The notes under the pieces were generated by a model. The model was not told the DNA's origin and ran no database searches. It worked only from the letters and a program-made list of their open reading frames with translations. Made by a program: the position numbers and the translations under genes. Below, piece by piece: positions 4,272-60,340 of a stretch of 64,000 nucleotides of DNA; the first letter of the stretch is position 1; the number at the start of each line of letters is the position of its first letter. The stretch is from Phycisphaerae bacterium (GTDB lineage Bacteria > Planctomycetota > Phycisphaerae > Tepidisphaerales > Tepidisphaeraceae), in the NCBI GenBank assembly GCA_030448225.1, contig JAUJNJ010000030.1, positions 1 through 64,000 of the forward strand, in the 5' to 3' direction.

Positions 4272-4667
4272 ATGAACCTCGCCAAGTACCTCGTGGCCCT
4301 CACCCTGTTCGCCGGCATGATCGGCTGCGCCTCGCGCCACGAGCAGGGCGTGAAGAGCAATTACCGCCAGCAGTGGACGGCCGTCGCGGCCGACACGAAG
4401 ACCACCACCGAGGCGGCGCGGGCGGTCCTCGAGGAGCGCGAACTGATCGACCTCACCGCCACCGCCACCGCCGGCGACGGCGTGGCCTCGGGCAAGCCCG
4501 CGGCCGGAAGAAGGTCAGCGTCGACGTCCAGAAGAAGAACGCCGGCAGCCAGGTCTCGGTCACCGTCGGCACCCTCGGCGACCGCGCTCGCCGCCGAACT
4601 CGCCAGCGAGATCAAGGCCCGCGCCGAGCCGCGAGGAGTGACCCCCGCCCTTCCAAAGAATACCTAA
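4272..4667 (+). CDS. DUF3568-type lipoprotein, two compensating frameshifts
   Basis: The start ATG has a good Shine-Dalgarno (GAAGGAG, about six bases before). The signal peptide MNLAKYLVALTLFAGMIGC ends in a lipobox Cys, so the protein should be lipidated. The mature part (YRQQWTAVAADTKTTTEAAR, then KKVSVDVQKKNAGSQVSVTV, then ALAAELASEIKARAE) matches what I know of DUF3568 proteins. The middle part is in a different frame: one indel near 4498 and another near 4585 restore the original frame. The TAA stop coincides with the first bases of the adjoining inverted repeat. Confidence 0.75.
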   Translation: MNLAKYLVALTLFAGMIGCASRHEQGVKSNYRQQWTAVAADTKTTTEAARAVLEERELIDLTATATAGDGVASGKPAAGRRSASTSRRRTPAARSRSPSAPSATALAAELASEIKARAEPRGVTPALPKNT

Positions 4668-4781
4668 CCACGGAGGCACGGAGATACGGAGGTGACACGG
4701 AGGCGGTTAAGAAGGGCACCTCACGATACAGACGCCTGCTCTACTCTGTGCCGTCTCCGTGTCTCCGTGACTCCGTGGTAA
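4665..4781. repeat. CACGGAG-family inverted repeat, copy 1
   Basis: The left arm (about 4665-4703) is a run of CACGGAG-like units starting TAACCACGGAGG. The right arm (about 4745-4781) is its complement, ending CTCCGTGGTA. The spacer is about 40 bases. The stop codon of the lipoprotein gene is the first triplet of the element. Related elements lie at 30587, 32328, 35681 and 38767. Confidence 0.8.
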
Positions 4782-4907
4782 GTCTTCCCCGCTGAAAGGC
4801 CAGGTGTCAAGCGCCCCGGGGACCCCAACGTCCCCGCGGCGTTCCGCTTCGCTCCGCGGCTCCCGGCGGGCGGCGTGGCGGGCCGACATCGGGTAAGATT
4901 GCGGGTT

Positions 4908-5727
4908 ATGGACGTCTTCCGCATCGGCCCGTTCGAGATCCGCAACCGCCTCTTCGTCGGCACCGGCAAGTACGCGACGTACGAGCTCATGCAGCAGGGC
5001 GCTGGACGCGTCCGGCTGCCAGGTCGTGACCGTCGCCGTCCGCCGCGACCGCCTCGAGGACAAGCAGGGGCGGCGGCTCACCGACTTCCTCGACCTCGAC
5101 CGCTACGTCGTCCTGCCGAACACCGCCGGGTGCAGCGCCGCCGACGACGCCGTGCGTGTCGCCCTGCTCGGCCGCGACCTGCTGGAGAAGGCGGGCAACA
5201 AGGGGGCGGGCTGGGTGAAGCTCGAGGTGCTCGGCGACAAGCGGACGCTCCTGCCCGACCCCGTCGGCACGCTCGAGGCGACGCGCGAGCTCGTGAAGGA
5301 GGGCTTCACCGTCCTGGCCTACACGAGCGACGACCCGCGGTCGGCCGTCCGCATCAAGGAGGCCGGGGCCGCCAGCGTGATGCCCGCCGCCAGCCCGATC
5401 GGCAGCGGGCAGGGCGTGCTCAACCCGCTGAACGTCTCGCTCTGCCTCGAACTGCTGAAGGAGAACGACCCGCACTACCCGGTGATCGTCGACGCCGGCG
5501 TCGGCACCGCCTCGGACGTGGCCGTCGCGATGGAACTGGCGCGCCGACGGCGTCCTGCTCAACACCGGCATCGCCCACGCGAAGGACCCCGTGAAGATGG
5601 CCATGGCGATGCGCCACGCGCTGGAGGCGGGGCGGCTCGCTTATCAGGCGGGGCGGATGCCGAAGAAGGCTACGCGACGGCGAGCAGCCCGTTCGAGGGC
5701 GTGATCAGCTATATTCCGGGGGAGTAG
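4908..5727 (+). CDS. thiG: Thiazole synthase ThiG, three indels
   Basis: Read across frames, the protein runs from [20 protein letters not shown] through [28 protein letters not shown] (with the Lys that forms the imine with deoxyxylulose phosphate), [18 protein letters not shown] and [15 protein letters not shown] to [12 protein letters not shown]. ThiG joins deoxyxylulose-5-phosphate, dehydroglycine and ThiS thiocarboxylate into the thiazole. Length and order are normal. Frame changes lie near 5000 (one extra G in a GGG run), 5543 (one base missing) and 5668 (one C missing). Such single-base errors in a biosynthetic gene fit consensus error better than decay. Confidence 0.88.
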
Positions 5728-5742
5728 TCGGAGAAGACTCAC

Positions 5743-6000
5743 ATGACCGGCAGCGCGTTCCGGGACCGGATGCGGGTGAACCCGTTCCAATCGTTCCTGG
5801 TGAAAACGGCGGACGGCGACACGTTCATCGTCGACCACCCCGACTTCGCGATGATCAGTCCCCACGCGACGGAAATCATCATCTACGACAAGGACAATCA
5901 CTTTCGCGTCGTGTCGATGAACCATGATCGTGTCGCTCGAACCCGTGCGCGACCAGACCAAGAAGCCGGGCAAGCTGAACCGCGCCGCACCGGGACCGCC
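5743..6000 (+). CDS. Small hypothetical protein upstream of rsmG
   Basis: About 85 residues, starting MTGSAFRDRMRVNPFQSFLV, with TADGDTFIVDHPDFAMISP in the middle and a clear beta-rich pattern. Proteins of this kind, which describe a short 'position/value' domain, are common hypothetical genes in planctomycetes; I know no function. The frame slips near 5922, after which MIVSLEPVRDQTKKPGK reads in frame 2. No stop is seen before the rsmG start at 6001, so the two genes abut or overlap slightly and the 3' end is approximate. Confidence 0.6.
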
Positions 6001-6703
6001 ATGCCCAACGCCCTCTGGACCGAAATCGCCGCCCGCGCCAACGTCACGCTGAGCGACGCGCAGCACGCGCCTCTCTCGCTACCTTCGACCTGCTGTTCGA
6101 GGCGAACCAGCGGATGAACCTCACGCGCATCACCGACGCGCGCACGCCGAGGTGCAGCACGTGGCCGACGCGCTGACCCTGCTGCCGTACCTGCCGCCCG
6201 ACGCGCACCGCCTGGCCGACGTCGGCAGCGGCGGCGGGGTGCCGGGCCTGCCGCTGGCGATCGCCCGGCCGGACGTCGCCGTCACGCTCATCGAGGCGAC
6301 GAAGAAGAAGGCCGCGTTCCTGCGCGAGGCCGCGCGCAACTCGGGCTGGCGAACGTGGCGGTGCTCGAAATGCGGGCCGAGGACGTCGGGCAGACGCCCG
6401 AGCACCGCGAGTCGTTCGACGTCGCCGTCGCCCGCCGTCGCCACGATGGACTGGCTGGCCGAGTGGTGCCTGCCGCTCGTGAAGAAGCGCGGCACGATGC
6501 TGGCGATGAAGGGCCAGAAGGTGGCCGAGGAACTGCCGATCGCGGCCAAGGCGATCAAGATCCTCGGCGGCGATCCGGCCGTCGTTCACCCGGTGGAACT
6601 GCCGGGCACCGAGCACCGCGTGATCGTCGAGATCCACAAGAGCAAGAAGGGCGATTTACGCTACCTACCCCGCGCCGCCACGCGCGAAGGGGCCGCTGGC
6701 TGA
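6001..6703 (+). CDS. rsmG: 16S rRNA (guanine527-N7)-methyltransferase RsmG, several indels
   Basis: Reconstructed across frames: MPNALWTEIAARANVTLSD, FEANQRMNLTRITDAR, LADVGSGGGVPGLPLAIARP (the SAM-binding glycine loop), VTLIEATKKKAAFLREAARN, AVLEMRAEDVGQ and AVATMDWLAEWCLPLVKKRG, ending HRVIVEIHKSKKGD. This order is that of RsmG (GidB), which methylates G527 of 16S rRNA with SAM. Frame changes occur near 6068, 6150, 6350 and 6430, and probably once more near 6670, where the usual basic tail is garbled. Total length is normal for the family. Confidence 0.85.
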
Positions 6704-7405
6704 GGGAGGGCGACGAAGGAGCGATCAGCCGCGAGTTGAGCGGGCGATGGCCCGCGAGGATCCGGGTGATCGTCAGTACAGCCAGCCACCACGCCGCCAG
6801 TCGAGTCATGGTTGAAGGATGAAGGCGGGGTGCTCATTCCCGCGACGGCATTGGGCTGGCAGGTGGCGGCTTTGGGTTTGAGTTTCGGGGGCAGCTCTTG
6901 TGGGTGCAGGCGGTCACGCTCGATTGCACCTGCTGATGTACGTTTACGAATGGTTCCGCTCGCAGTGGCTCGCCACCGTCGACGCTCGCTGGGTTACCGT
7001 GAGGAAATTTGGGCATCCTGCGAGCCCACGTTGATCTTCGCCGTCGCGTTCCTCGGTCCCGTTTCGTGGTGGGTCGGGGCCATCCTCGATCGCACGGGGA
7101 CGGTGTCGGTCGGCGGCCCCGGAGAGCGTGGATAGCGAAGCTGATCAACGCGGGCGTATTCCGTCGCACGCCGATCGAAACGATGGCCCCGGGAGTCGAT
7201 CGGGGACAGGGCAGGGGCCAGGGGTTCTTGCAGCACGCAGCACGACGGGCACGCCGGCCGGTCGATTCATGGCGTACGCCTTCTCCCAGCGACCTGGGGA
7301 CGGGAGGTGGGTCGCTACGCTGCTTCGATTACGGCTCGACGATTAGCGGGGTGACGCCGACGCCGTTCCCACGCCCTCGACCGCGCCGCTAAGGAGATCA
7401 GCACG
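6704..7405. other. Long gap without a convincing gene
   Basis: About 700 bases. Frame 2 contains a hydrophobic stretch near 7030-7090 (TLIFAVAFLGPVSWWVGAIL), and frame 3 contains a short MYVYEWFRSQWLATVDARW stretch at 6930-6990. These may be pieces of a small membrane protein broken by indels, but I cannot join them convincingly. A purine-rich AAGGAGATC lies just before the next start at 7406. No clear terminator or repeat was seen. Confidence 0.4.
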
Positions 7406-7856
7406 ATGGACCCCTTCCTCAAAGCCGCCTACGACGAAGCGATGCAGGGCCTGGAAAGAGGGCGGCCTGCCGATCGGGTCGGTGCTCGTGCGGGGCGACG
7501 AGATCGTCGGCCGCGGGCACAACCGCCGGGTGCAGAACGGCGACCCGATGGCCCACGCCGAGATCGACTGCCTCACCCGCGCCGGCCGGCCAGCGGACGT
7601 ACAAGGACACCGTGCTCTACTCCACGCTCATGCCCTGCTTCCTGTGCAGCGGGCGGCGGTGCAGTTCGGCGTGCCGAAGGTGGTCGTCGGCGAGTCGTTC
7701 AACTTCCCGGCGGCGAGGGCCCGGCGGCATGTCGCCGCAGTTCATGCGCGGGCAGGGGATCGAGGTCGTCGACGTGGCCGACCCCAGTGCATCGAGATGA
7801 TGCGCGCGTTCATCGCCGCCCACCCGCAACTCTGGTACGAGGACATCGGGCGGTGA
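7406..7856 (+). CDS. Cytosine/nucleoside deaminase family protein, several indels
   Basis: Read across frames: MDPFLKAAYDEAMQGLE, then GLPIGSVLVRGDEIVGRGHN, MAHAEIDCLTRAGR (zinc-binding His and catalytic Glu of HAE), TVLYSTLMPCFLCSG (the PCxxC zinc ligands), VPKVVVGESFNFPGG, and finally MMRAFIAAHPQLWYEDIGR. The pattern resembles yeast-type cytosine deaminase and related nucleoside deaminases more than TadA, because of the GRGHNRR and YEDI ends. Indels are evident near 7460 (extra A), 7590 (extra C), 7650 (missing G), about 7710-7725 (missing Gs) and 7792. An AAGGAG site precedes the ATG. Confidence 0.8.
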
Positions 7857-8132
7857 ATCCGCGGGCGCGCGACCGAGAGCCGCGGGCGTTCGTGAGGACG
7901 CTGTTCGACGAGGGCAACCGTTGAAAGCAAACTCCGCGGCGTTCCGAAGGCGCGACGTAGTCGCGGGCGGTGCGCCGAACGGGTTCGCGGATCTCACGGG
8001 TCGCGCAACCGCTTCGCGGCCGGCCCGAACGGACGAGGGCGACGATCCGGTCAGAATCGGGGGCGAGAATTGCGGCCCGCGAGGTCGCGCGGTAGACTCG
8101 CTACGCGTGATCTGTTCGCGCGGAGGTGCTGA

Positions 8133-9672: not shown

Positions 9673-9679
9673 CACCGCC

Positions 9680-11797
9680 TTGTCCGACACCACCCTCCAC
9701 GACATCCTCGGCCAGGACGGCTCGATCGCCCGGCGGCTTGCGGCGGACTACGAGTTCCGCCCGCAGCAGCTCGAGATGGCGACGGCGGTCGAGCGCGCCC
9801 TCAACGGCGGACGCCACCTCATGGTCGAGGCCGGCACGGGGGTCGGCAAGTCGTTCGCCTACCTGCTGCCGGCGATCGACTACGCGGTGAAGCAGAAGAA
9901 GCGGGTCGTGGTCAGTACGCACACGATCTCGCTCCAGGAACAGCTCATCGACAAGGACATCCCGCTGCTCCAGGCCGTCTACCCCGACGAGTTCACGGCC
10001 GTGCTCGTGAAGGGGCGCGGCAACTACCTCTGCCGCCGGCGGCTCGAGCAGGCGCGGGGGCGGCAGAACATGCTGTTCGAGGACCAGCGCCAGCTCGAGT
10101 CGCTCTGGGCGATCGAGGAATGGGCGAATGACACCACCGACGGCTCGCTCACCGACCTGCCGGCCGTCCCCGACCCCGGCGTCTGGGAGCACGTCCGCGC
10201 CGAGCAGGGCAACTGCCTCGGCAAGAAGTGCAAGCACTACAACGGCTGCTTCTGGCAGGCGGCCAAGCGGCGGATGCAGTCGGGCACGATCCTCGTCGTC
10301 AACCACGCGCTGTTCTTCTCCGACCTCGCGCTGCGGATGGCTGGCGTGAACTACCTGCCGAAGTACGACGCGGTCATCCTCGACGAGGCGCACACCGTCG
10401 AGGACGTCGCCGGCAGCCACTTCGGCCTGCAGATCAGCGAGAGCGGCCTGAAGTACCAGCTCCGCTCGCTCTACGACCCGCGCAAGGGGCGCGGCCTGCT
10501 GAGCGTGCACGGCTCGGCGGCCAACCCGGCGATTCAAGACGTGATCGAGCTGCACGACCGGGTCGATTACTTCTTCCAGCGCTGCATCGAGTGGCAGCAG
10601 CAGTTCGGCCGGGGCAACGGCCGGATCCACCGGCCCGACATCGTCGAGGACGACGTCAGCCCGAAGCTCAACGACCTCGCGATCCATCTCAAGGAGATGC
10701 TGGCCGGCCTGAAGGAAGAGGAGGAGATCGCCGAGCTCACCTCGACGGCGGACAAGGTGCAGATCCTCTGCCAGACGCTGCGCGCGATCGTCGGCCAGAC
10801 GCTGGTCGACGCCGTCTACTGGATGGACGTCGCCACCCGCACGCCGCGGCGCGTGAGCCTGCACGCCGCCCCGGTGAACGTGGGCGAGGGCCTGCGGCGG
10901 CAACTGTTCGGGAACGTGCGGAGCGTCGTGATGGCCAGCGCCACGCTGTGCACCGCCGTCGAGCCCCAACGGCCGCGGTTCCGCGGGTCGATGGGCGACC
11001 CGCGCGCCGTCCAACCGTCAAACCCGCTGCGGGGGCTGGAAGACGACGACGCCCAGGTGCCGCCGCCACCGCCGCCGCCGCCGGCCGAGGTGGGGCCGTT
11101 CACCTACATCAAGTCCCGCCTCGGGGCCGACGACGCCGAGACGCTCGAGCTCGGGTCGCCGTTCGATTACGCCACGCAGGCCACGCTCTACGTGGAGACG
11201 GGGCTCCCGGAGCCGTCGGACGCGCTGCGGTTCATGCCGGCGGCGTGCGACAAGATCATCGAGTACCTGAAGCTCACCGGCGGTGGGGCGTTCGTGCTGT
11301 TCACGAGCTACAAGATGCTGATCGACGCGGCCAACCGGCTGAAGCCCGCGATCGACCGCCTCGGCTACCCGCTGCTCGTGCAGGGTCAAGGCGCGCCGCG
11401 GAAGGTGCTGCTGGAGCGGTTCCGCGCCAGCAACGCGTCGGTCCTGTTCGGCACGAGCAGCTTCTGGCAGGGGATCGACGTCCGCGGCGAACAACTGCGG
11501 AACGTGATCATCGTCAAGCTGCCGTTCGCCGTCCCCGACGAGCCGGTCGTCGAGGCCCGCCTCGACGCGATCAAGCGATCGGGCGGCAACCCGTTCATGG
11601 ACTACTCGGTGCCCGAGGCGATCATCAAGCTGAAGCAGGGGTTCGGCCGGCTCATCCGCAGCAAAACCGACAAGGGGATCGTCGTGATCCTCGACAGCCG
11701 CGTGAAGGGCAAGCGCCGCTACGGCAAGCTCTTCGTCGACGCGCTGCCGGCCTGCCGCGTGGAGTACAGGGGGGCGAAGCAGGAGGGTAGAGGGTAG
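9680..11797 (+). CDS. dinG: DinG/XPD-type ATP-dependent DNA helicase
   Basis: About 705 residues, unbroken. Walker A GTGVGKS at about residues 52-58, DEAH box near 235, and a QGFGRLIRS motif VI near 655. Four cysteines of an iron-sulfur domain are visible: one near 118 (YLCRRR) and three in NCLGKKCKHYNGC near 178-190. DinG enzymes unwind 5' overhang DNA, R-loops and forked structures, and the Fe-S domain is needed for this. TTG at 9680 is chosen because LSDTTLHDILGQDG looks like a natural start; the frame is open further upstream without good sequence. Residues about 440-465 form a Pro-rich insert. The stop TAG lies inside the heptad repeat that follows. Confidence 0.88.
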   Translation: MSDTTLHDILGQDGSIARRLAADYEFRPQQLEMATAVERALNGGRHLMVEAGTGVGKSFAYLLPAIDYAVKQKKRVVVSTHTISLQEQLIDKDIPLLQAVYPDEFTAVLVKGRGNYLCRRRLEQARGRQNMLFEDQRQLESLWAIEEWANDTTDGSLTDLPAVPDPGVWEHVRAEQGNCLGKKCKHYNGCFWQAAKRRMQSGTILVVNHALFFSDLALRMAGVNYLPKYDAVILDEAHTVEDVAGSHFGLQISESGLKYQLRSLYDPRKGRGLLSVHGSAANPAIQDVIELHDRVDYFFQRCIEWQQQFGRGNGRIHRPDIVEDDVSPKLNDLAIHLKEMLAGLKEEEEIAELTSTADKVQILCQTLRAIVGQTLVDAVYWMDVATRTPRRVSLHAAPVNVGEGLRRQLFGNVRSVVMASATLCTAVEPQRPRFRGSMGDPRAVQPSNPLRGLEDDDAQVPPPPPPPPAEVGPFTYIKSRLGADDAETLELGSPFDYATQATLYVETGLPEPSDALRFMPAACDKIIEYLKLTGGGAFVLFTSYKMLIDAANRLKPAIDRLGYPLLVQGQGAPRKVLLERFRASNASVLFGTSSFWQGIDVRGEQLRNVIIVKLPFAVPDEPVVEARLDAIKRSGGNPFMDYSVPEAIIKLKQGFGRLIRSKTDKGIVVILDSRVKGKRRYGKLFVDALPACRVEYRGAKQEGRG

Positions 11798-11955
11798 AGG
11801 GTAGAGGGTAGAGCGTAGAGCGTAGAGAGCAGAGAGTAGAGAGTAGAGGACGACGACGGACGGAGCCGGTGGAGTGTCCCGCGTCTTCCTCCACCCTCCA
11901 CCCTCCACCCTCCACCCTCCACCCTCCACCCTCCACCCTCTACCCTCTACCCTCG
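11784..11955. repeat. Heptad array inverted repeat (GGGTAGA / CCACCCT)
   Basis: The left arm (11784-11850) is a tandem array of 7-mers, GGGTAGA then GCGTAGA and GAGTAGA variants. The right arm (11888-11955) is about eight CCACCCT units followed by two CTACCCT units. The arms are complementary in register, with about 37 bases between. The left arm supplies the dinG stop codon. A related GGTGGAG-type inverted repeat lies at 46592-46839, and a half copy lies inside hrpB near 50230-50280. Confidence 0.8.
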
Positions 11956-16715: not shown

Positions 16716-16850
16716 CCTCCCTCTCCCCAGTACGCTGGGGAGAGGGAGGCGGAGAGGGGATCCTGAAGCCAGCGTCCCGTCACATCGGCGCGCTTGCCGC
16801 GCGAACCCCTCTCCCCTGCCCTCTCCCCGGAGAACCGAGGAGAGGGAGGT
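16716..16850. repeat. CTCTCCCC/GTAC compound hairpin, copy 1
   Basis: Two hairpins are joined by a long-range stem. The left hairpin CCTCCCTCTCCCCAG (16716-16730) has loop TACG and a perfect 15-bp complement (16735-16749). The right hairpin CCCTCTCCCCGG (16819-16830) has loop AGAA and one mismatch. GGAGAGGGG at 16751-16759 can pair with CCCCTCTCC near 16806. The whole could fold as a three-way junction. The same plan recurs at 28345, 46654, 49081 and 60155. Confidence 0.8.
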
Positions 16851-28179: not shown

Positions 28180-28344
28180 CCGTCACTCCTCCAGCGCGTC
28201 ACTGGTTCATCGAGTTTGGAATCGCATCCGTCACATGCTTCGGAATCGCGGTACACCGGGAGCAAGCTGCTTGGCCGCTCGGAGCGTCGCGCGCTCGGTT
28301 GCGTCCAACGCTCTTCACCGGGGTGCGTCCGATGCCATCGCCCC

Positions 28345-28460
28345 TGTACTCACGGGAGAGGGTGAGAGAGAGGGGATCTCGCGACCCGGGTCCCACGTCA
28401 GAGACGCCAGTTGCAAGATCCCCTCTCCCCTACCCTCTCCCCAGAGTACTGAGGAGAGGG
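28345..28460. repeat. CTCTCCCC/GTAC compound hairpin, copy 2
   Basis: GAGAGGGGATCT at 28368-28379 and its perfect complement at 28416-28427 make a 12-bp stem. The right hairpin CCCTCTCCCCAG (28433-28444) has loop AGTA and one mismatch. The left hairpin is weak (CCCCTGTACTCACGGG). It lies downstream of the second sulfatase (minus) and upstream of the first. Confidence 0.75.
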
Positions 28461-30586: not shown

Positions 30587-30698
30587 AAAGGCAACCGCGG
30601 AGCCGCCGAGACGCGGAGGTCGGCGGAGAGAGGTCCGCGAGCGACGTCGCTTCCCTCCGCGTTCGTCTCCGCGACGCCGCGTCTCCGCGGTTGCCTTT
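30587..30698. repeat. CGCGGAG-type inverted repeat, copy 2 of the CACGGAG family
   Basis: The left arm starts AAAGGCAACCGCGGAGCCGC and continues with ACGCGGAGG units (30587-30627). The right arm (30654-30698) is the complement and ends GCGGTTGCCTTT. The unit is a GC variant of the CACGGAG repeat. It begins 24 bases after the stop of the third sulfatase. Confidence 0.75.
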
Positions 30699-32233: not shown

Positions 32234-32327
32234 AGGACCTCCGTGGACTTGGGTGATGCCGACATCGTCCGCCGACGCCGCGTCATACGCAACGCCGGAG
32301 GGGCGGCGATATTGCGGGGGGGAGAAA

Positions 32328-32586
32328 GTTGAACCACGGAGACACGGAGACACGGAGGTGGGGCAGAGGATCGAAGATTAGATTGGGGGGCTCACCCGTT
32401 CCGTTGCCGCAGCGCGTTGCGCACTCCATCTCCCCCGTACTCGGGGGAGATGGCGGGGGTGAAGGGCGAAGCCCAAGGATGAAGGATGAAGGCGGACGGA
32501 TGAAAAGGAGAGCGCTCCAGATCTTTTCATCCTTCATCCTTCATCCTTCCGCCTTCATCCTTCGATGCAGTGTCTCCGTGGTTCAA
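32328..32586. repeat. Nested inverted repeat: CACGGAG outer arms, two inner hairpins (copy 3)
   Basis: Outer arms: GTTGAACCACGGAGACACGG at 32329 onward and TGTCTCCGTGGTTCAA at 32571-32586. Inside: a perfect 12-bp hairpin CCATCTCCCCCG (32426-32437, loop TACT), which is the CTCTCCCC/GTAC type, and a long stem of GGATGAA units (32475-32508) pairing with TTCATCC units (about 32523-32562). Three repeat families are therefore nested here. The element lies between two divergent genes, so it may touch both promoters. Confidence 0.8.
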
Positions 32587-32707
32587 TTCCTCCGCCACGC
32601 CGAAGACCGCCGCTCGGTTGTCCTATCCGCTCACGCGAGCGGTTACAACTGAGGGCGGCAACGTTTCGCCCGTCGCGTCTCGCCCGCCGTTCGGATCGCG
32701 GAGGCCT

Positions 32708-35685
32708 ATGTCTCGTCGACTGCAGACCGTCCTCTCGTTGCTCGTTCTGATCGTGCTGCTCGTGCTGCTGCTCCTGCCGCGCGTCGGCCGCGCAGGGCAA
32801 CGCCGTGGCAACTCGACCGCCGCCGCGCGCCGGCCGGGGAGATGATCCGCCTGCCGGTCTCGGCGCGACACGCGGGTGTCGGCGGTCGGGGCGCGCCGCG
32901 ACGGGAACAACGGGGCGTCGCCGAAGCTGAAGCTCAAGAGCAACCAGGAGATGACGCTGCCCGACGTGGACGTGCGGCCGCTGAAGGGGGGGTTCGGGCG
33001 GCGACGCTCCACGTGCCTCGCGGCGAAGGAGATCCTGCACCGCGTGACGACGAGCAGCATCGCCGCGGAGTGGACCGAGGGGACGGGGACGAACTACGCG
33101 GTCGTAGGCGCGTCGACGTTCGCCCACGCGCGGCACCCGGACGGGCCCGTGGGCGCACGCCGGCGGCGACCTCACGGCGGTGACGCTGGGCGGGGGCGGG
33201 AGCGTGTGGGCGATGGCCGACGCGTTCCCGCCGGACGAGGCGGGGTGGCAGCGCTGCGGCCGTCGACCCGGCCGTCGTGGCGCGCGGGTGGCGGCGTCAG
33301 CGGCGGGTTCCTCGTCTTCGACGACACGGGCAGCGAGTGGACGCGCGACGGCGAGACGTTCGGACGTCCGCCCGTTCCCCAACCGCTTCGTCCACAGCAA
33401 GGACGGCAACGCCGCGTCCGCCCCGTACCTCGTCGTGACGCTCGGCGACGCCGACACGGAGCCCCCGGACGCCCCCGCCGACGTGCGCCCCGCGCGCCGG
33501 CCGACCTGCCGGCCGGCGAGCGCGAGTGAGCTGGGCCACGCCTCGCCGACGCGGGGCCGGCCGGCACCGTCGGGTTCGTCGTCACGATCGACGGCGTGCT
33601 TCCGCGCCGCGCTACCTCATCCCCTCGCGCGGCGGCGTCGCCCGGCGGGCGGGTGACGATGCACCTGCGCGACCTCGGCCTCACGGCCGGGCAAGCCGCG
33701 TGAAGGTCGGCGTGTCGGCCGTCGACGGGCGCGGGGAACGTCGGCCCGGCGGCCGAGGCGGAGGTGGTCGCTTCAAGCGCGGGTCGTGCCGCCGCTGCCG
33801 GGCGTGACGCCGGAGCCTTCAAGGCGGCCGGCGACGTTGCGCTGCCGCGGATCGGCGGGGCGGAGGTGGCGATCGTCGACGCTGGCTCGACAAGGTCCAG
33901 CCGGTCACGGGGAAGCTCGTCCCTCGCGCAGCCGCCAGAGTACCTCGCGGCCAACCATCTCTTGGACGCGTCGCGGAAGGTCCTGCGCCCACGCTGCGAG
34001 GAACGAGTTCGTGTCGTTCCGCGGTTGCGCGCGCGGTGAAGGACGTTACGCCGTGGCTCTCGTTCCAGGGGAAGGTGGACGCCGAGGACCGAGTTTTTTC
34101 GCTTCCGCCACGTCGCTACGCCGGACGGGCCGATGCTCGACCCCGTCCCGCCGCTCGCCGGCGCTTCAGCGTCCCCGCGGCCGACCAGGCGATCGACGGG
34201 CAGACGCACGCGATGCTCTGCGAGATCTACGTCGGGCATGACACGGCCGCGGGCGAGCGGCGGGGACGCTGATGCTCACCAGCGGCGGCGAGCGGCTGAC
34301 GATCGACGTGACGCTGACGGTGTGGACTTCACCCTCCCGGACTACCTGCGCTTCTTCCTTGAGCTCAACACCTACGGCCTGCCGCCGGAGACCGAGCGTG
34401 CATATTACCGTCTCGCCCACCGCCCACGCGGTGCTCAACCGCGTGCCGTACCAGCAGAACGGGCACGTCCCGCAGGGCAACGCGCCTATGTGGGACGGCA
34501 AGCGGCTCGACTTCGCCGCGTGGGACGCGCGCTTCGGCCCGCTCGACGGTTCCGCGTTCGCCGATTTGCCCCGCAAGAACGTGCCGCTCGAATTGTTCTA
34601 CCTCCCGCTCCACGAGAACTGGCCGACGCCGATCGAACCGAACTACAACGGCGACTACTGGGCCGACCGCGCGTTCCCCGCCGCCTACCGCGCCGCCTTC
34701 GTCGCGGCGACGCGCCGCGCCGAGCACTTCGCCGCCCGCGGCTGGAACGACACGCTCTTCCACGGCTTCCTCAACGGCAAGAACAACTCCAAGGGAGCGC
34801 GGCTGGTCGCGCGGGTCGTCGCCGTGGCTGCTCGACGAGCCTGCCCACTTCCAGGACTTCTGGGGCGCTCCGCTGGTTCGGCGAGGCGTTCCACGAGGGG
34901 TGAACGGGGAGAGCGCGAAGGTCAACCGGCGGCGGCAGCGGTGCCGCCGGCGGCCCGCGGATGATGTACCGCTGCGACATCTCGCGCCCGCAGTGGCAGC
35001 GCCAGTCGCTCGATCACGTGCTCGATTACAACGTCGTGTCCTCGCCGCCTTCCGCGAGTACGGCCGGCTCGTCCTCGACCGCAGCCGCGAGTTCGGGCAG
35101 ATCGTGATGGTCTACGGCTCCACCAGCGACCCGCGCGCGAGCAACATGCAGCCGGTCGGCTGGTGCCTCGACGCGTGGGCGAGCGCGCCGACGGCGTGCT
35201 GCCGTGGCAAACGGTCGGCACCGACGCGTCGTGGACGACCGCCGACCCGCCTCGCTCCTGTACCCCGGCCAGCCGGCGGGACGGGCCGATCCGGTGCCGT
35301 CGGCGCCTCAAGGCCTACCTCCGCGGCCAGCAGGACGTGGAGTACCTGACGATGCTGGCGCAACTGAAAAAGCAGTCGCCGACGGAGATCGACACGCGCT
35401 GCGCGACGTGCTGTCGATCCGCGGCGAGCCGCCGCGGCACCGGCTTCACCGGCGGCGAGGACGCGGGCATCGTCACCTACGACGCGGTTGCGCCCGCAGG
35501 ACGCGTGGGCGGCGCGCGCGCGTCGGCGAGGTGCTGTCGGCTCTACGCCCCCGAGCCCGAGCGGCGGATCGTCGACTTCCGCACGCCGCGCCGCGACCTG
35601 CCGCCGGCATGCCGGCGGGTACGTGACGGCCGGCGAGACGCCGCCGGTTCAGCGGGGCCGGTGGACGCCGGCGGTGCGGAAATGA
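32708..35685 (+). CDS. DUF4091-type (glycoside hydrolase 123-like) protein, very many indels
   Basis: The start MSRRLQTVLSLLVLIVLLVL is a signal anchor. Fragments in all frames fit one chain of about 990 residues; the clearest are LPDYLRFFLELNTYGLPPE, HVPQGNAPMWDGKRLDFAAW, FADLPRKNVPLELFYLPLHE, NYNGDYWADRAFPAAYRAAF, RGWNDTLFHGFLNGKNN and AYLRGQQDVEYLTMLAQLKK. The catalytic region of DUF4091 proteins has this look, related to GH123 N-acetylgalactosaminidases. The nearby sulfatases fit a role in degrading sulfated polysaccharide. More than twenty slips make this the most broken gene in the window. The TGA stop overlaps the next inverted repeat. Confidence 0.65.
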
Positions 35686-35857
35686 ACCACGGAGGACACG
35701 GAGAGCACGGAGGTGGGAAACAGACGAAGAGGAGGATGGACGATGGAGGAAGACGAAATTACGGCATCCGCGTCGTTCGCCTTCCTCCATCCGCCATCTT
35801 CCATCCTCGTCTTCTCCTCCGACCTCCGTGTCTCCGTGTCTCCGTGGTTCAATTCTT
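35681..35857. repeat. Nested inverted repeat: CACGGAG outer, ATGGAGGA inner (copy 4)
   Basis: Outer arms: TGAACCACGGAGGACACGG at 35683 onward and CCTCCGTGTCTCCGTGTCTC to 35857. Inner arms: GGAGGATGGACGATGGAGG (35731-35751) and CTTCCTCCATCCGCCATC and on (35780-35819). The TGA of the preceding gene is the first triplet. Confidence 0.8.
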
Positions 35858-36307: not shown

Positions 36308-37290
36308 GTGACGCGCCCCCACCGACCGCCGGCCGCGCCGCCGCTCGTGCTGGCGACGGTCCTGTGGGGCTGCGGCTTCACGTGGGCGAAGGCGGCGGGC
36401 AGGGCGTGCACCGGGCCGTCGGCCTGCCGGACGGCCGATGCTCGGGCCGATCTTCATCCTCGCCTGCCGCTTCGCGATCGCCGGACTGGCCGTGCTGCTG
36501 ATCGTGCCTGCGTCCCGCCGGGGTGGACGCGGGCGAGCCGGCGGCGCGCGCGACCGGCGTGGGCCTGCTGCTGGCGGGCGGGCTCGTCGTGCAGCACCTC
36601 GGCCTCGACCGCACGAGCGAGGCGGTCGCGCGTTCCTCACGAGCCTCACGATCCTGTTCGTCCCCCTCATCCTGCTGGTCGTGTTCCTGTGCCGCCGGGC
36701 GCCGGTGCTGTGGCTCGGCGTCGTGCTCGCGACGGCCGGGATCTGGCCGATGACCGGGGCCGCGCCGACCGGCTTCAAGGTGGGCGAACTGCTCGGCCTC
36801 GCCTGCGCGGCCGCGTTCGCGGTCTACATCCTGGCGGTGAACGCCGCGTCGCGCGTCGAGAACGTGGCGGCTGACGGCGGGGCAGTTCGTCGTCACCTCG
36901 CTCGTCTGCGCCGTCGCCTGCCTGTTCGTTGAAGGCGGCCCCGCTCGCCTCGCCGGCGGGGGGGGCGCGCGTCCTCGCCGGCCCCGGCGTCGGGCTGAAC
37001 CTGATCCTGCTGAGCGTGTTCCCGACGTTCCGGCGTTCGTGCTGAACGTGTTCCAGCCGCGGCTCGACCCGACGCGCCTGCGCGCTGATCTACCTTTTTC
37101 GTCGAGCCGTCGTGGCCGCGGCGCACGCCTACTTCGCCCGCGACGCGGAGATCGGCCGACTCGCGCTGGCCGGAGCGGGACCGATCCTCGCGGCGAACGT
37201 GATGGTCGAAAGGCTATCGGCCCGGTCGAAGCGGCGGCGGGTGTGGGGTCCTCGGCTGGGTACAGCGCCTGTTCGCAATTCCGGTCGAAG
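36308..37290 (+). CDS. EamA/DMT-family transporter, several indels
   Basis: GTG start (VTRPHRPPAAPPLVLATVLW). The pattern LWGCGFTWAKAAG, MLGPIFILACRFAIAGLAVL, GLLLAGGLVVQHLGLDRTSE, AFLTSLTILFVPLILLVVFL and LGLACAAAFAVYILAVNAAS is the two-times-five-helix plan of EamA drug/metabolite transporters. The second half (VTSLVCAVACLFV, VGLNLILLSVFP, GAGPILAANVMVE) is in a different frame, and several slips lie between 36400 and 37190. The end is uncertain and probably lies at the edge of the following repeat. Confidence 0.75.
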
Positions 37291-37648
37291 GTGAACGCCA
37301 AGACGCCAAGACGCCAAGGTAGGAAGAGAGAGCGTTGTTGATAATTTGCGGACGCTGCGATTCTCGGTGACGGGTGGGCGAGATGTGATCATCGGGGCGT
37401 GCGTCCGACGCGTTGCAACCGCCGCGCCGCACTGGAGGGTGAGCCAATGTCGCGACTCACGTCCCGCACCAGGGACAATTTCAGCGAGATCCCCTCGAAC
37501 CCTCCCCCGAATACAGGGAGAGGGGACCGATGCAGCACATTTCAAACGGACGCGCTGGAACCCGTTACGCACGATCTACTGGCAATCTAAACCGGCTCTT
37601 TCTTCCTTCTCTTCTTCTTGGCGTCTTGGCGTCTTCGCGTTCACCTTC
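37287..37648. repeat. GCCAAGAC-type long inverted repeat with 300-base spacer
   Basis: Arms GAAGGTGAACGCCAAGACGC and on (37287-37318) and the complement CTTGGCGTCTTGGCGTCTTC and on (37617-37648) match over about 32 bases with one mismatch. Inside are degenerate CCCTCTCC/CAGGGAGAGGGG stretches near 37493-37525. Both arms overlap the presumed ends of the flanking genes. Confidence 0.75.
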
Positions 37649-38721: not shown

Positions 38722-38766
38722 CGCGTTGGACTCGGGGACGCTGGCATCATCGAAATGAAAGTCGTG

Positions 38767-38938
38767 TTAACCACGGAGACACGGAGACACGGAGAGAGGA
38801 GAAAGACGAGGATGGAGGATGGAGGGACGGAAGATGGAGGAAGATGAGGCGCGTCGCAGTCTCGAACGCCTTCCTCCATCCTCTATCTTCCATCCTCCAT
38901 TATCGCCTCCGCCTTCGCTCCGTGTCTCCGTGGTTCAA
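38767..38938. repeat. Nested inverted repeat: CACGGAG outer, ATGGAGGA inner (copy 5)
   Basis: Outer arms: TTAACCACGGAGACACGGAG and on (38767-38794) and CTCCGTGTCTCCGTGGTTCA (38918-38938). Inner arms: GAGGATGGAGGATGGAGGG and AGATGGAGGAAG (38809-38844) against CTTCCTCCATCCTCTATCTT and on (38870-38898). It lies between the ATP-grasp start and the metallopeptidase end. Confidence 0.8.
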
Positions 38939-38952
38939 TTCCTCTTCGCCGT

Positions 38953-46591: not shown

Positions 46592-46839
46592 GGTGGAGTG
46601 GTAGGGTGGTGGAGTCGGAAGTGGTCCGCGTGCATCGATCGACGTTGCGACCTCCCTCTCCTCGGTACTCCGGGGAGAGGGCAGGGAAGGGCTCTCTTGC
46701 AGCAGGCGTTCCTTCACATGGGTCTGTCGTCGGCGAGATCCCCTCTCCCCCGCCCTCCCCCAGCGTACTGGGAGGGGTCGCAACTCGCAAGACCACGCCG
46801 CGAACCCTCCGTTCAGACTCCACCCTCCCACCACTCCAC
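46592..46839. repeat. GGTGGAG outer arms around a CTCTCCCC/GTAC compound hairpin (copy 3)
   Basis: Outer arms GGTGGAGTGGTAGGGTGGTG and on (46592-46616) and GACTCCACCCTCCCACCACT and on (46816-46839). Inner: hairpin CCCTCTCCTCGG (46654-46665), loop TACT, complement to 46681 with one mismatch; right hairpin CCCTCCCCCAG near 46753 with GTAC at the tip; GAGATCCCCTCTCC between. Two repeat families are nested. The right outer arm lies eight bases from the end of the oxidoreductase gene. Confidence 0.75.
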
Positions 46840-49080: not shown

Positions 49081-49207
49081 CCTCTCCCCCAGTACGCTGG
49101 GGAGAGGGCAATGGAGAGGGGATCTCGCAGCCCGCATCCCATCGCTCGGGACTGCCCGCCGCGCGGCCCTCTCCCCTGCCCTCTCCCCGGAGTACCGAAG
49201 AGAGGGG
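49081..49207. repeat. CTCTCCCC/GTAC compound hairpin, copy 4
   Basis: Left hairpin CTCTCCCCCAG (49082-49092), loop TACG, complement to about 49107; right hairpin CCCTCTCCCCGG (49179-49190), loop AGTA, complement 49195-49206 with one mismatch; GGAGAGGGGATC near 49113 pairs with CCCTCTCCCC near 49167. It begins seven bases after the hrpB 3' end (minus strand). Confidence 0.75.
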
Positions 49208-49213: not shown

Positions 49214-51846
49214 CTAGCAATCGACCTGTGACGAACCACTGGCACTTGCGACACAGCCATGTTCTTCGGCTGCGGTCGCGGCACCCGTCCTCCGCTTCCC
49301 CTTCGCCTCGGGCTTCGCCGTCAGCGGGTCTTCCGGCCAACTGTGCTTGTGGGGTAGCGGCGCTTTCGGGGTCGCGCGGACCTGGAAGTAGGTCGTCGAC
49401 CAGAGCTCCGCAGATCCTCGATCTGCACCGGCCGGTAGTTCGGGCCGAGCAGGTGGAGCGACCGGCGCGGCCGGCGGCGATGCGCAGGTATCGGTCCAGC
49501 CGAACAGTTCCTGTAGCCGCACGGCCAGCACGGGCGACGCGTCGGGCGCGTACGCGAGGCGGATGCGGTTGCCGGTCGGCACCTCGATCGACTCCGGCGC
49601 GTGCTGCTCGACGAGGCGGTCGAGCGTGGTACGCCAGCGCGAGCGGAGCAGGTTCGAGGCACTGCCGGCGGACGTCTTCAGGCTGCGCGGCCGGCGGCGG
49701 CTTTGGCGAGGAGGCCGCCGGGTCCGATGCGTCGAACGCCGGCCACGGGTGCTCCGGCATCGCGGCGGAGCAGGTCGACGCGGCCCAGCAGCGCGGCGGC
49801 GTCCTCGTCGGCGGCGAACGTCTCGGCCGCGCGCTGTCGCAGGTAGTCGCCGAGCCGCGCGGCCGGCCGTCGCGGCGTCGACGGCGGCCTCCTTGTCCTC
49901 GCGCAACAGCAGGTCGCGGTACCAGGCGTGTCGCGGCCGTCACGCGCGCCGCGCCCTCGTCGGTGACGGCCGTGCGCGCTCGCGGCGGACCGACTCGAGG
50001 AAGTGGTCCTCGAGCCACGCCACGTCGATCCGGCTGGCGACGCGGACCACGGCCTCGCGGCTGGCGTTGCGCTCGTCGTGGCGGGCGTCGAGCGCGCGAG
50101 GAAGAACTCGTCGTCCCACACGACCGACTCCGCCATCAGCCGCACGCCGCCGCCCCCGCCGACCATCGCCGCCGCCGCCGGGTCGCCGCCGCCGCCGGCA
50201 GACGCGGTCGGGGCGAGCAGCGGAAGGCGGAGGGAGTGGGGGAGGTGGTGGAGGGTCGGGTGGTGGAGTGGTGGAGTCGTTGAGGCGGCGGGCAGCAGGA
50301 GGCGGTCGTCCTCGTCTTCGCGACCTGACGGGCGGCGACGGGGTCGATGCCGCGGTCGCGGAGACCATGGGCCCAGTGGCTCGCTCCGCCTCGGCGAAGA
50401 GGTCGAGGCGGACGAGGAGGTCGAGGGGCCGCGGCCCTTCGCCGTGCGCGGGCCGCCGGTGGGGACCTCGCGGGCGACGATGTCTTTCTCGGAGAGCAGG
50501 CGAGGCGATCGTCGCCCTCGTCGATGATGCCGTGGGCGGCGGCCTCGATCAGCAGGCGGGCGAGCGAGGTGGACGGGCAGCGCCATCATCCGCCGGCCCA
50601 GGGGCGTGATCCTGGCCGCCGGCGTCGCTCGTGAGGCGCCGAGCATGAAGGAATCATCGGCGCCGGCGAGAGCATCCGCTCGTCGCCCCGTACCAGCCGA
50701 ACTGTCGCGGGTCCGGCTTGCCCCAGGCGTGCAGCGAGCACGGTGGAGCAGAGGTCGACGCGCCGCACCTCCGGCTCCTCCTCGAACGAGGGAGCGCGGC
50801 GGTCCTCGCGGCTGCTCCAGAGACGGATGCACCGCCCTGGACCTGTGCGGCCGGCGCGACCGGTGCGGCTGGGTGGCGGAGGCCTTGCTGATGCCCCAGT
50901 TCGAGGCGGTCGAGGCCGCGGCGCGCAGGTCATAGCCGGCGACGCGCGCGAAGCCGGCGTCGATCACGTTGACGCCGTCGATCAGAGGCTCGTCTCGGCG
51001 ATGTTCGTCGAGGAGGATCACCTTCCGCTGCCGGCCGGCCGGAGGGCGCGTACAAGGTCGAACGGGAGCGAGCCGTGGAGCGGGAGCAGGAGCAGGTCCT
51101 CGCGTCGGCGAGCCGCTTCGAGGCGCTGCGCCGCCCGGCGGATCTCCTCCGTGCGCCTCGGCAGGAAGACGAGCAAGTCGTCCGCTCGTACCGCGCGCCG
51201 CCGCGTTAACCGTGAATGGTTCCGCCACCGCAGCGTGCACCGCGGCGGCCGCGCGTTCGGGCAGGTGTTCGGCGGCCGGCGTGAGGAACGAGACGCTGAC
51301 GGGGAACGTGCGGCCCGGCACGCGCACGATCGGCGCGCCGAGGAACCGCGCGACCGGCTCGGCGTCGAGCGTGGCGGACATCACGAGGATCAGGTCCTCG
51401 CGCGGTCTGCCGCACCTCGTGCGCAGCAGGGCGGCCGTGACGTCGGTGTGGAGGCTGGGTGGAACTCGTCGAGGATGACGGCGCCGGTCCCCTCGAGGAA
51501 CGGGTCGTCGAGCATCTGGCGAGTGAGGATGCCTTCGGTGAGCACGCACGGCGCGTCTGCGGGCCGACGCGCGCTCGAACCGGACGTGGTAAGCCCACCT
51601 CGCGGCCGAGTTCCCAGCCGTTCTCCTCCGCGGACTACCTCCGCCGACTTCGCAAGCGCTACCTGCCGCGCTGGAGCATCACGATGTTCGGGTTGTCGGC
51701 TGCGAACAGCCCCCGGCGCGCCAGCGCGCTCGGCGGCACGCGTGGTCTTGTTCGCTGGCGACGAGCACCGTGCCGCCACGCTCGCGCACGGCGGCGACGA
51801 TCTGCGGGAGGTGGGAATCGATCGGCAGCGGGGTGCGGCGGTCCAC
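49214..51846 (-). CDS. hrpB: ATP-dependent helicase HrpB, many indels
   Basis: GTG start VDRRTPLPIDSHLPQIVAAV. Then RERGGTVLVAS with KTTRVPPAL, PNIVMLQPRR, TEGILTRQMLDDPFLEG, VILDEFH (DExH), SLHTDVTAALLR, VMSATLDAEPVARFLG, IVRVPGRTFPVSVSFL, GRRMMALPVHLAR, and at the end a tail like KHSWPEDPLTAKPEAKGKR. This is the order of HrpB, a DEAH RNA helicase whose cellular role is poorly known. Over twenty slips. Near 50230-50280 the coding sequence holds a GGTGGAG-type repeat read as HHPTLHHLPHSLRLP between the helicase core and the C-terminal domain. Confidence 0.75.
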
Positions 51847-55707: not shown

Positions 55708-55718
55708 CACGAGCCCGT

Positions 55719-56072
55719 TCAAAGTTCCGTGTACTTCACGTTCCGCCCCTTCGCCTTGTCCACCGGATACTTCAGCGCGTCCTTCCGCAGCTTCTGCTCC
55801 AGCGCGTCGGCGAGGTCGATCTTCAGGTCGCTCGCCAAGAGCAGGACGGAGTGGAGCACGTCGGCGAGCTCGTCGCGGAAGGCGTCGTGCCTGCGCGCGA
55901 CGATCTCCCGCACCTCGTCGGGGTTCTTCCACTGCGTGAGGGCCAGTAGTTCGGCCGACTCGACGCACAGGCTGATGGCGAGTTCCTTGGGCGTGTGGAA
56001 CTGCGCCCAGTTCCGCTCGTCGCGGTGGCGGAGGACGCGCGTTGTCAGGTCGGCGAGGGTGGCGGCGTTCAT
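55719..56072 (-). CDS. MazG-like nucleotide pyrophosphohydrolase
   Basis: 117 residues, unbroken. MNAATLADLTTRVLRHRDER starts it; the metal-binding motif ESAELLALTQW is at about 38-48, with DELADVLHSVLLLASDLKID following. This EExxE-plus-ExxD pattern is that of the MazG/RS21-C6 group, which cleaves (d)NTPs such as dCTP or house-cleans damaged ones. The next gene starts 12 bases beyond its stop. Confidence 0.85.
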   Translation of the reverse strand: MNAATLADLTTRVLRHRDERNWAQFHTPKELAISLCVESAELLALTQWKNPDEVREIVARRHDAFRDELADVLHSVLLLASDLKIDLADALEQKLRKDALKYPVDKAKGRNVKYTEL

Positions 56073-56374
56073 GCGGTCATCGTACGCGCGCGGGCGGGCG
56101 ACCGCGCGGCAAGGTGCCCGAGCCAGTTCGACCGCCGCACGCCGTGCGGTAGGATGGGCGTGCCGTTCAGCCGGCGCGATCGCGAGGCGCGTGGCGGCGC
56201 GTGGCGCCGCCGGGCGGAGCGCGGCGATGAGGTCGCACTTCTGATCCCGTGGAGTCGACCGGCCGCATCCCAGTTCAATCGCATCGTCGCCTCGCGGCCG
56301 GAATGTCAAGATATTGCCAATTGGCCCGGAAGCGAACGAGCAGTGCATCTCCATCGGCGTCGGAGGCTACTTCC

Positions 56375-57823: not shown

Positions 57824-60128
57824 AGAGGTTTTACGAGGTCGAAACGCCAGTGCTCTCGGACCTCTGCAAGGGCGGCCTCGCCGGTGGCCGCAAGCCGCTC
57901 GGGCTCGTCAGGGCCACCTCGGCACCGGCGGCGGCCTACGTCGTCGATACCATCACCGCGCCCCGACGCCAACCCGTGGAAGAGCTTCCTCGCTTCGGCG
58001 GCGTCGACTTCTTCGCCAACGGCGACGCCGCCGTCTGCTCGGTCAGCGGCGACGTGTGGGCATTGTGGGTCGTCAGCGGCCTCGACGCAAAACTCGAAGC
58101 GGTGAAGTGGCGGCGGTTCGCCGCCGGCATGTTCCAGCCGCTCGGCCTGCGCGGATCGTCGACGACAAGGTCTACGTGCTCGGCCGCGACCAGATCACGC
58201 GCCTGCACGACCTCAACGCCGACGGCGAGGCCGACTTCTACGAGAACTTCAACAACGACTGCAAGGTCACCGCCAACAGCCACGCCTACGCGACGTGTCT
58301 CGAGACCGACCCGGCCGGCAACTTCTATTACGTGAAGTGCGGCGACGGCACGCCGCCGCACGGCGGCACGATGCTCCGCGTCAGCAAGGACGGCTCGAAG
58401 CTCGACGTCTTCGCGACCGGCCTGCACGCCCCAACGGCGCCGGCGTCGCCGGCCACGTCGTCACCGCTGCCGACAACCAGGGAACGTGGGTGCCCGCGTC
58501 GCGGCTCGACGCGTCGTCTCGCGCGGCAGTTCCTCGGCCACCTGCCCACCGCCAAGACCACGCCGCCGCCGACCGATCCGGGCAAGCCGCTCTGCTGGAT
58601 GCCGCAGAACGTCGACAACTCCAGCGGCGGGCAGGCGTGGGTGACCGGCGGGCGGTGGGGCCCGTTCGACGGGCACATGCTCACGTCGTACGGCTCGGCC
58701 ACCCTCATGCTCGTGATGAGCGAGACGGTCAACGGCGTCGAGCGAGGGGGCGTCGTCCGCTTCCCGCTCGGCTTCGACACCGGCATCATGCGCGTGGCCG
58801 CTTCCGCCCGCAGGACGGGCAGCTTTACGTCTGCGGCCTGAAGGGGTGGCAGACCAGCGGCGCGAAAGACGCCGCCGGCCAGCGCGTCCGCTACACCGGC
58901 AAGCCGCGCACATGCCCAAGGCGATGAGCGTCCACCGCAACGGCATCCGCCTCACGTTCACCGACCCGCTCGACAAAGAACTCGCCGCCGACGTCGAGTC
59001 GTACGGCGTGCTGCAGTGGAACTACAAGTGGTCCGCCGACTACGGCTCGCGCCAGTGGTCCGTCGCCCGCCCCGGCGAGCAGGTACGACGAGGTGCCGGT
59101 GAAAGCCGCCCACGTCTCCGCCGACGGAAGACCGTCTTCCTCGAGATGCTGAGCGTCCGCCCGGTGACCCGCAGATGCAGATCACCTACGACCGAATCAA
59201 CGGGCGGCGACGAGATCCGCGGCGACATCTACAACACGATCCACGAACTCGGCGCCCTACGACCCCACCCAACTCACCGGCGTCCCCGCTTCCAGCGGAA
59301 GCCACGCAGAAAACCAGACCGCCCGCACCCCGCGCGCGAAGGAGGACGCAAAGGACAACGCGAAGCCGAAAAGGTCGTTCTCATCGCCGGCAAGAAGAGC
59401 CACGGCCCCGGCGAGCACGAATACGAGAGGGGATGCGCGCTCCTCGCCTGCCTCGAAACGTCGCCCAACCTCAAGGGCATCAAGACCCACGTCGTGACCG
59501 ACGGCTGGCCGAGTGATCCCAAAATCCTCGACGACGCCGACACGATCGTCCTCTTCTCCGACGGCGCGACCACGGCCAGGACCGCCACCCGCTCCTGCAC
59601 GGCGACCGCCTGCAACAACTCGGCAAACTCATGGACCGCGGCGTAGGCCTGGTCGCCATCCACTACACGGTCTTCGTCCCGACGAACAAGGGCGGCAAGG
59701 AATTCCAGAACTGGATCGGCGGCTACTTCGACTACGACTCGGCCGGCAACGTGCGCGAAGAAGTGGTACTCAAAACTCGGCCACGCCACGACCACGTCCA
59801 CGCCGGTGACGAAAGACCACCCGATCTGGCGCGGGTGCGAGCCGTTCGACCAAGACCGAGTACTACTGGCGGATGCAGCTCGCGAGAACGACCCGCGCCT
59901 CACGCCGATCCTCACGTTCGACCCGAAGGGCGGCCCCGAAACCGTCGTCGCCTGGGCCGTCCAGCGCGAAGACGGCGGCCGCGGGTTCGGCTTCACCGAG
60001 GGCCACTTCCCTCGAACTGGAATATCGAAAGCTTCCGCCGGATGGTCCTGAACGCCATCGCCTGGACGGCCAAGGCGGAAGTGCCCGACGCCGGCGTGCA
60101 ATCGACGCTGCTCGAAGAAGAGAAGTGA
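57820..60128 (+). CDS. Beta-propeller-like protein with C-terminal ThuA domain, indels
   Basis: Starts at the ATG overlapping the previous stop (MKRFYEVETPVLSDLCKGGL). Across frames: VDFFANGDAAVCSVSGDVW, DKVYVLGRDQITRLHDLNAD, TANSHAYATCLETDPAGNFY, DNSSGGQAWVTGGRWGPFDG, GVVRFPLGFDTGIMR. These are the propeller parts of PVC-type 'heme-binding/sorbosone-like' proteins. From about 59330 ThuA: TSPNLKGIKTHVVTDGWPSD, DADTIVLFSDGA, GVGLVAIHYTVFVPTNKGGK, KDHPIWRGCEPFDQ, RGFGFTEGHF. It may act in carbohydrate use; ThuA is linked to trehalose in rhizobia. About twelve slips. The stop TGA is the first triplet of the next repeat. Confidence 0.7.
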
Positions 60129-60340
60129 ACCGCAGAGGCGCTGAGGACGCCACTCCCTCTCCCCCGTACTCGGGGGTGAGGGCCGGGGTGTGGGGCGGAA
60201 TGTGGTGGTGGCGGGGTCGGGTGGTTGCGTGGTGGATTAATGGCCTCTCCTACACCACCCCGCCACCACCGAACCACTCCACCACCTTCTCCCGTTCTGC
60301 CCCTCACCCTAACCCTCTCCCCCGAGTACGGGGGAGAGGG
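60126..60340. repeat. GCAGAGG unit, then CTCTCCCC/GTAC compound hairpin (copy 5)
   Basis: 60126-60149 is TGAACCGCAGAGGCGCTGAG and on, a GC variant of the CACGGAG left arm with no right arm seen. Then hairpin CCCTCTCCCCCG (60155-60166), loop TACT, one mismatch; a GTGGTGG/CCACCACC stem around 60202-60236 and 60254-60286; and hairpin CCCTCTCCCCCG (60313-60324), loop AGTA, perfect complement 60329-60340. Three families stack in 215 bases. Confidence 0.8.

Follow-up and report, generated by a model that had tools for sequence, protein, structure and literature searches.

RAYT genes are known to be flanked by REPs, and RAYTs are thought to move these repeats. In the REPtron, a RAYT (Y1 tyrosine transposase) gene is flanked by inverted REPs, and bare REPs occur elsewhere (PMC3733652). 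Bacterial MITEs are gene-less inverted-repeat derivatives of a coding element that are scattered through intergenic regions (PMC2229807), and the intervening sequences (IVSs) of 23S rRNA have inverted arms forming a long stem, which is cut by RNase III, with the S23 ORF in the loop (PMC4990558).

Here we analyzed a 64 kb stretch of DNA (hereafter the window; G+C 70.7%) that holds hairpins with arms of short tandem units. We propose, with a probability a little over 0.6, that these tandem-unit hairpins derive from two parallel families of very small mobile elements, one encoding a GxxExxY protein and the other an S23 protein, and are short, MITE-like forms without a gene. Each of the three known systems resembles these elements in some respects. 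As in REPtrons, hairpin repeats flank a gene in inverted orientation and gene-less copies are dispersed, but the gene is GxxExxY or S23 rather than a Y1 transposase, and the arms are arrays of short units. As with MITEs, gene-less hairpins share their ends with a coding element (the copies in genomes G109 and G112 discussed below; CACGGAG arms around ORF-bearing and ORF-less copies), although the coding partner is without a known transposase and a fixed target duplication was not found. The S23 elements have the protein family (PF05635/TIGR02436) and the ORF-in-stem-loop layout (34/50) in common with IVSs, yet they have arms built as arrays of tandem units, many of them directly follow protein-coding genes, and gene-less hairpins exist; moreover, none of 20 S23 loci checked against Rfam matched rRNA, as an insertion in 23S would. 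Because the S23 family shares the protein and layout of IVSs but its 20 checked loci lie outside the known rRNA families, and because no counterpart of the GxxExxY family was found described in the literature searched, we place the elements as a variant of the REPtron and IVS kinds, with a real chance that they merit a class of their own.

Hairpin elements in the window

The genes recognized in the window encode sulfatases, DUF4159, DUF6797, a helicase and ABC transporters; for one sulfatase, the closest relatives in 392 Planctomycetota genomes show 67% identity over the full length and 69% over part of it. Both the gene content and these relatives are consistent with a planctomycete. The window contains about 12 hairpin elements, eight of which are built from tandem units and the others from REP-like CTCTCCCC...GTAC hairpins in inverted pairs. 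The tandem units are either CACGGAG, CGCGGAG or ACGCCAAG, separated by short spacers, or GAGGGTA, AAGGATG, GGATGGA or GGTGGAG in 7-nt arrays. Judging from unit type, the CACGGAG and ACGCCAAG hairpins are probably GxxExxY-type, and the GAGGGTA, GGTGGAG and GGATGAA arrays S23-type. None of the elements is assigned to a strand.

Hairpins with GxxExxY-type units lie at 4658..4787 (CACGGAG, arms 4658-4702 and 4744-4787, without an ORF) and at 30587..30698 (CGCGGAG, arms at about 30587-30618 and 30667-30698), and a 7-nt array hairpin of S23-type GAGGGTA units and their complement lies at 11783..11954 (arms 11783-11861 and 11876-11954). At 37287..37648, ACGCCAAG array arms (37287-37329 and 37608-37648) enclose a loop of about 280 nt in which no recognizable GxxExxY or S23 gene was found, nor was either gene found in the window as a whole. 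Three composites carry a 7-nt hairpin within CACGGAG outer arms: the first (32321..32593) encloses a GTAC hairpin (32426-32453) and an adjoining AAGGATG hairpin (32475-32555), and the others (35679..35855 and about 38766..38940) each enclose a GGATGGA hairpin (35731-35802 and 38804-38908, respectively). GGTGGAG outer arms surround two GTAC hairpins (46651-46685 and about 46733-46788) at 46593..46839, and GTAC hairpins surround a GGTGG array hairpin (60204-60286) at 60155..60340. The remaining elements are inverted pairs of REP-like hairpins, of the CTCTCCCC...GTAC type at 16716..16849 and the GTAC type at 28341..28454 and 49081..49205.

The original prediction had described tandem-array inverted arms in most long gaps, nested in one order and explained neither by single REPs nor by terminators. 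Such arrays, with 7- to 8-nt units, do occur at eight places in the window, but the CTCTCCCC/GTAC copies (16716, 28341, 46651, 49081, 60155) that had been pooled with them are REP-like inverted pairs; at these five places they are short palindromes, present in many copies and in inverted pairs, as REPs are. The argument that the elements go beyond single REPs or simple terminators holds for the tandem-unit hairpins, which form a coherent kind. A constant outer-to-inner order was not found: CACGGAG lies outside GGATGGA or AAGGATG at 32329, 35683 and 38766, but GGTGGAG encloses GTAC at 46593 and GTAC encloses GGTGG at 60155. Nor is nesting universal, as the copies at 4658 and 30587 have no inner tandem array.

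The window arms are not due to chance, because a strict detector of paired period-7, -8 or -9 arms, which overlooks arms with irregular spacers, found three in the window and none in five shuffles of 2-base blocks, and because the predicted folds of 32329-32590 (z = -8.28) and 38766-38940 (z = -10.0) were matched in stability by 0/200 shuffles.

A GGTGGAG-like array also occurs at 50233-50277, with no complementary downstream partner detected; an S23 match beside it was weak (E = 0.32) and was taken as spurious. Between 47209 and 53370, and elsewhere in the window, gene prediction with a simple program produced numerous short gene fragments as well as very long gaps, as if assembly indel errors had broken the reading frames.

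Occurrence across bacteria

We scanned one genome per bacterial or archaeal species for a pair of CACGGAG units and, 30-60 nt away, a facing pair of CTCCGTG units. Such hairpins were found in at least 119 stretches, from at least 12 phyla by record title, a count that holds if the labels are correct, as many of the records are draft metagenome-assembled genomes and single titles may be wrong. Titles among the stretches listed include Acidobacteria, Chloroflexi, Planctomycetota, Proteobacteria, Desulfuromonadales/Geobacter, Bacteroidetes, Spirochaetes, Verrucomicrobia, Myxococcales, Acidimicrobiia, Binatia and Hydrogenedentota. The units are therefore not confined to one assembly, in agreement with the original prediction, which had mentioned similar units in other bacteria and knew of no described mechanism; a literature search turned up no description of such elements.

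The elements have in common the majority-base boundary TTCAC/CACGGAG...CTCCGTG/GTGAA, and their loops differ. The free base between the outer units was complementary across the arms in 69/114 elements, with 15 G-T pairs in addition, against a mean of 47.2 and a top value of 66 in 5,000 shuffles. Since this complementarity exceeds that of all shuffles, pairing tends to survive sequence change, and the expectation that arms would keep their pairing while varying in sequence is borne out.

Sequence flanking the short elements is A-rich on the left and T-rich on the right. By gap type, tandem gaps hold 46 of the 118 short elements, convergent gaps 24 and divergent gaps 12; a further 24 fall within an ORF by a rough call, and 12 at the ends of loci. 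Their distribution extends beyond the positions at which termination would be of use.

At three loci (L027, L040 and L071, from Endozoicomonas acroporae and a record titled Salinisphaera sp. G21_0), CACGGAG hairpins are embedded in a larger repeated element that is bounded on the outside by inverted flanks of its own. Because the two records share closely similar flanks, one of these titles may be wrong.

A single gene between the arms

Facing arm pairs 300-3,000 nt apart were present in only two of the 119 loci listed. In one of these (L044), CACGGAG arms 473 nt apart surround exactly one ORF, encoding a GxxExxY protein of 137 aa (TIGR04256, 149 bits); no GxxExxY gene was found between the wide arm pair of the other (L070). 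GxxExxY and S23 proteins were tested as candidates by aligning the 300 nt upstream of each gene with the downstream 300 nt in reverse complement, with a score of at least 14 taken as a pass, a threshold fixed after the first PF13366 results.

Complementary arms were found in total at 41/51 PF13366 genes (GxxExxY, a PD-(D/E)XK nuclease family) and 34/50 PF05635 genes (S23/23S-rRNA-IVP four-helix-bundle). Ten genomes with CACGGAG elements contributed 17/22 and 16/21, respectively, and a sample of 79 Planctomycetota genomes contributed 24/29 and 18/29, with one locus per genome (29 loci for each family, out of 36 and 37 matching genomes). Controls with swapped flanks rarely passed, whether in the ten genomes (PF13366 3/44, PF05635 1/63) or in the Planctomycetota (5/87 and 1/87), and ParE control genes from the same ten genomes had arms in 0/30 cases (Fisher p ~6e-14 for PF13366 and ~1e-10 for PF05635). 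Matches were testable where they had a locus, as did 30 of the 38 listed for PF05016 and 30 of the 43 listed for PF01797. Second pieces of genes (L132, which belongs to the L127 gene, as well as L157 and L161) were left out, L430 was joined with L431, and L125 and L146 were counted once.

Arms were not detected at 10/51 PF13366 and 16/50 PF05635 genes, and some of these failures correspond to contig ends or to genes that are truncated or score weakly. In a few cases the arms that pass lack tandem units (L243, L300); at L243 (G099:C110:38224-38562), the PF13366 gene lies between long, plain inverted repeats instead of unit arrays. Two genomes, G041 and G029, had 21 and 25 PF05635 matches, many of them low-scoring, and the single locus tested in each (L299 and L302) had no arms, so that an armless multi-copy S23 branch may exist.

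Two families of arms and proteins

The S23 arms have a 7-nt period in 23/34 cases (AGGTTCT, AGGGTCG, GGTGTCT, GTGGATA and others). Those of GxxExxY consist of 7-mers with irregular short spacers (CACGGAG, CACAGAG, CACAGAT, CACGAAG and others), with a best period of 8-10 in 19/41 and no clear period in 21/41. Arm similarity follows protein similarity, with a Mantel r of 0.46 for GxxExxY (0/2,000 permutations) and 0.19 for S23 (14/2,000); this correlation could reflect either recognition or common descent, and descent alone would suffice. Armless loci (L137, L140, L141 and L142 for PF13366; L150, L162, L163 and L165 for PF05635) were left out of the period, Mantel and residue analyses.

The PD-(D/E)XK site residues of the GxxExxY proteins are kept almost throughout (D 47/47, E 46/47, K 46/47), and the predicted fold is of the PD-(D/E)XK kind (mean pLDDT 78). 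Two proteins between arms exceed the TIGR04256 cut-off (149 and 151 bits vs 35), and by family score and PD-(D/E)XK residues the between-arm proteins belong to PF13366/TIGR04256. We know of no catalytic role for S23.

Occupied, empty and gene-deleted sites

Nine genomes were compared from the Acidobacteriaceae genus that includes G001, some of them with tens of CACGGAG matches. In G112, a complete GxxExxY element lies directly 3' of the secD stop codon and 5' of secF, in a gap that is uninterrupted in G001, G111, G113 and G115. Both flanks align up to a common AAG, so the insert amounts to 532 nt plus a 3-nt duplication or microhomology. Between secD and secF, G109 has both CACGGAG arms and the first 25 codons of the gene, followed by a stop; this copy is a gene-deleted remnant at the site of the complete element in G112. 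The same gap holds a short CACAGAG element in G114 and a short 7-nt-array element in G108, and G110 is uninformative.

Further occupied/empty pairs in the genus involve insertions of 152 nt (overlap 3), 137 nt (overlap 4), 147 nt (overlap 8, doubtful) and 164 nt with 7-nt arms (overlap 0). The comparison yielded 30 insertion rows, some of them representing one insertion in overlapping loci; six had an inverted-arm score of at least 12, and the 152-nt insertion (arm score 9) was taken in by eye. No target duplication of fixed length was found, the overlaps being 3, 3, 4, 8 (doubtful) and 0 nt in five pairs, and the 118 short elements gave no such signal. Arms were present at 5/5 PF13366 genes in the genus (400-nt flanks). 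A PF13366 match was not found in G001, G109 and G110, all drafts with many CACGGAG copies, and among the first ten genomes it was absent from G001 and G005; since high-copy genomes thus occur without such a match, a resident gene is not needed for bare hairpins to persist or spread.

A 66-nt REP-type hairpin was also seen in one Acidobacteriaceae genome (L387, 13589-13656), the same site being empty in another (L377).

Proposed explanation and alternatives

The following proposal is based on the observed architecture and its enrichment relative to controls, on one precise occupied/empty site and on a gene-deleted remnant at that site. A complete element measures about 0.5 kb and has a single gene of about 105-140 codons, preceded by a left arm of some 3-4 short units and followed by a right arm complementary to it. 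In the first family the gene is GxxExxY, with D...ExK kept, and short spacers separate the 7-mers of the arms, such as CACGGAG; in the second it is S23, the four-helix-bundle protein of 23S rRNA intervening sequences, with arms that are mostly 7-nt arrays. The encoded protein would bind the arm units, with GxxExxY or S23 as the putative mover or processing factor acting on unit arrays. GxxExxY may cut DNA at or near the hairpin, mobilizing its own element and, in trans, bare hairpins, in the manner proposed for RAYTs and REPs, and an RNA step is conceivable for S23 by analogy with IVSs. Deletion within the gene would leave a gene-less hairpin, and the nesting in the window may have arisen from elements landing in older ones.

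More tentatively, and at somewhat less than even odds, these minimal mobile elements may together constitute one superfamily, present in at least 12 phyla, in which GxxExxY or S23 replaces the transposase and recognizes 7- to 9-nt unit arrays in hairpin arms, the rRNA intervening sequences being only the rRNA-inserted branch and two unannotated dispersed-repeat classes the gene-less descendants. Two annotation labels in wide use, 'GxxExxY protein' and 'four helix bundle protein', would gain a biological setting, a large intergenic repeat class would gain an origin and a candidate mover, and there would be a concrete reading of the nature of rRNA intervening sequences and of their spread. The occupied, empty and gene-deleted states of one site make the mechanism directly testable.

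The elements could instead be mobile with GxxExxY and S23 as passengers or proteins with other roles (e.g., RNA processing, defence or stability), moved by other enzymes or through template switching of replication forks at hairpins. The existence of high-copy genomes in which PF13366 had no match, the sharing of one layout by two unrelated proteins and the failure to find a target duplication of fixed length are all consistent with this reading, which we nevertheless consider unlikely, if well worth weighing, as a complete element has one gene only, the nuclease residues are kept, and unit type tracks both protein family and protein sequence. There is also a slim chance that everything here is REP/RAYT biology, with the hairpins moved by Y1 tyrosine transposases: a Y1_Tnp match was present in 10/10 tested genomes, the GTAC hairpins of the window are REP-like, and inverted hairpins surround 17/30 RAYT genes (450-nt flanks). 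Those 17 cases, however, are single REP-like hairpins or plain inverted repeats, in none of which were tandem 7- to 9-nt units seen by eye, yet such units do surround GxxExxY and S23; among the 30 RAYT genes tested, no Y1 transposase gene lay between tandem-unit arms, all 17 flanked genes having arms of other kinds.

The two specific protein families between the arms argue against both of the remaining readings. One would see the hairpins as host features, that is, bidirectional terminators or mRNA 3' stabilizers kept for their folding, with the small genes incidental, and it draws on the very stable folds, the A-rich left and T-rich right flanks, the many elements directly after stop codons and a convergent to divergent ratio of 24:12 against 74:82 in all gaps (p = 0.04). 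It seems improbable given that tandem gaps hold 46/118 of the short elements and divergent gaps 12/118, and that the gap between secD and secF holds a complete element in one genome but nothing in four relatives. In the other, the arrays would have grown where they are, through slippage and copying templated by hairpins and with no mobility involved, which would account for the tandem units and for unit numbers that can differ between arms; the recurrence of the same 7-mer with the same TTCAC/CACGGAG...CTCCGTG/GTGAA boundary in many phyla and the clean 532-nt insertion, gene included, make it very improbable.

Genomic setting of complete elements

Complete elements were oriented by their own gene, and the upstream neighbor was taken as the longest ORF of at least 150 aa within 500 nt. 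The upstream neighbor lies on the same strand for 31/36 GxxExxY and 21/26 S23 elements, a strand bias that is weak by itself (52/62 upstream vs 39/56 downstream, p = 0.08). Proximity is more marked: the upstream same-strand stop codon falls within 26 nt of the arm in 37/52 cases, as against 5/17 for downstream genes whose 3' end faces the element (Fisher p = 0.004). Given this sense placement after a stop codon, complete elements could be co-transcribed with the upstream gene.
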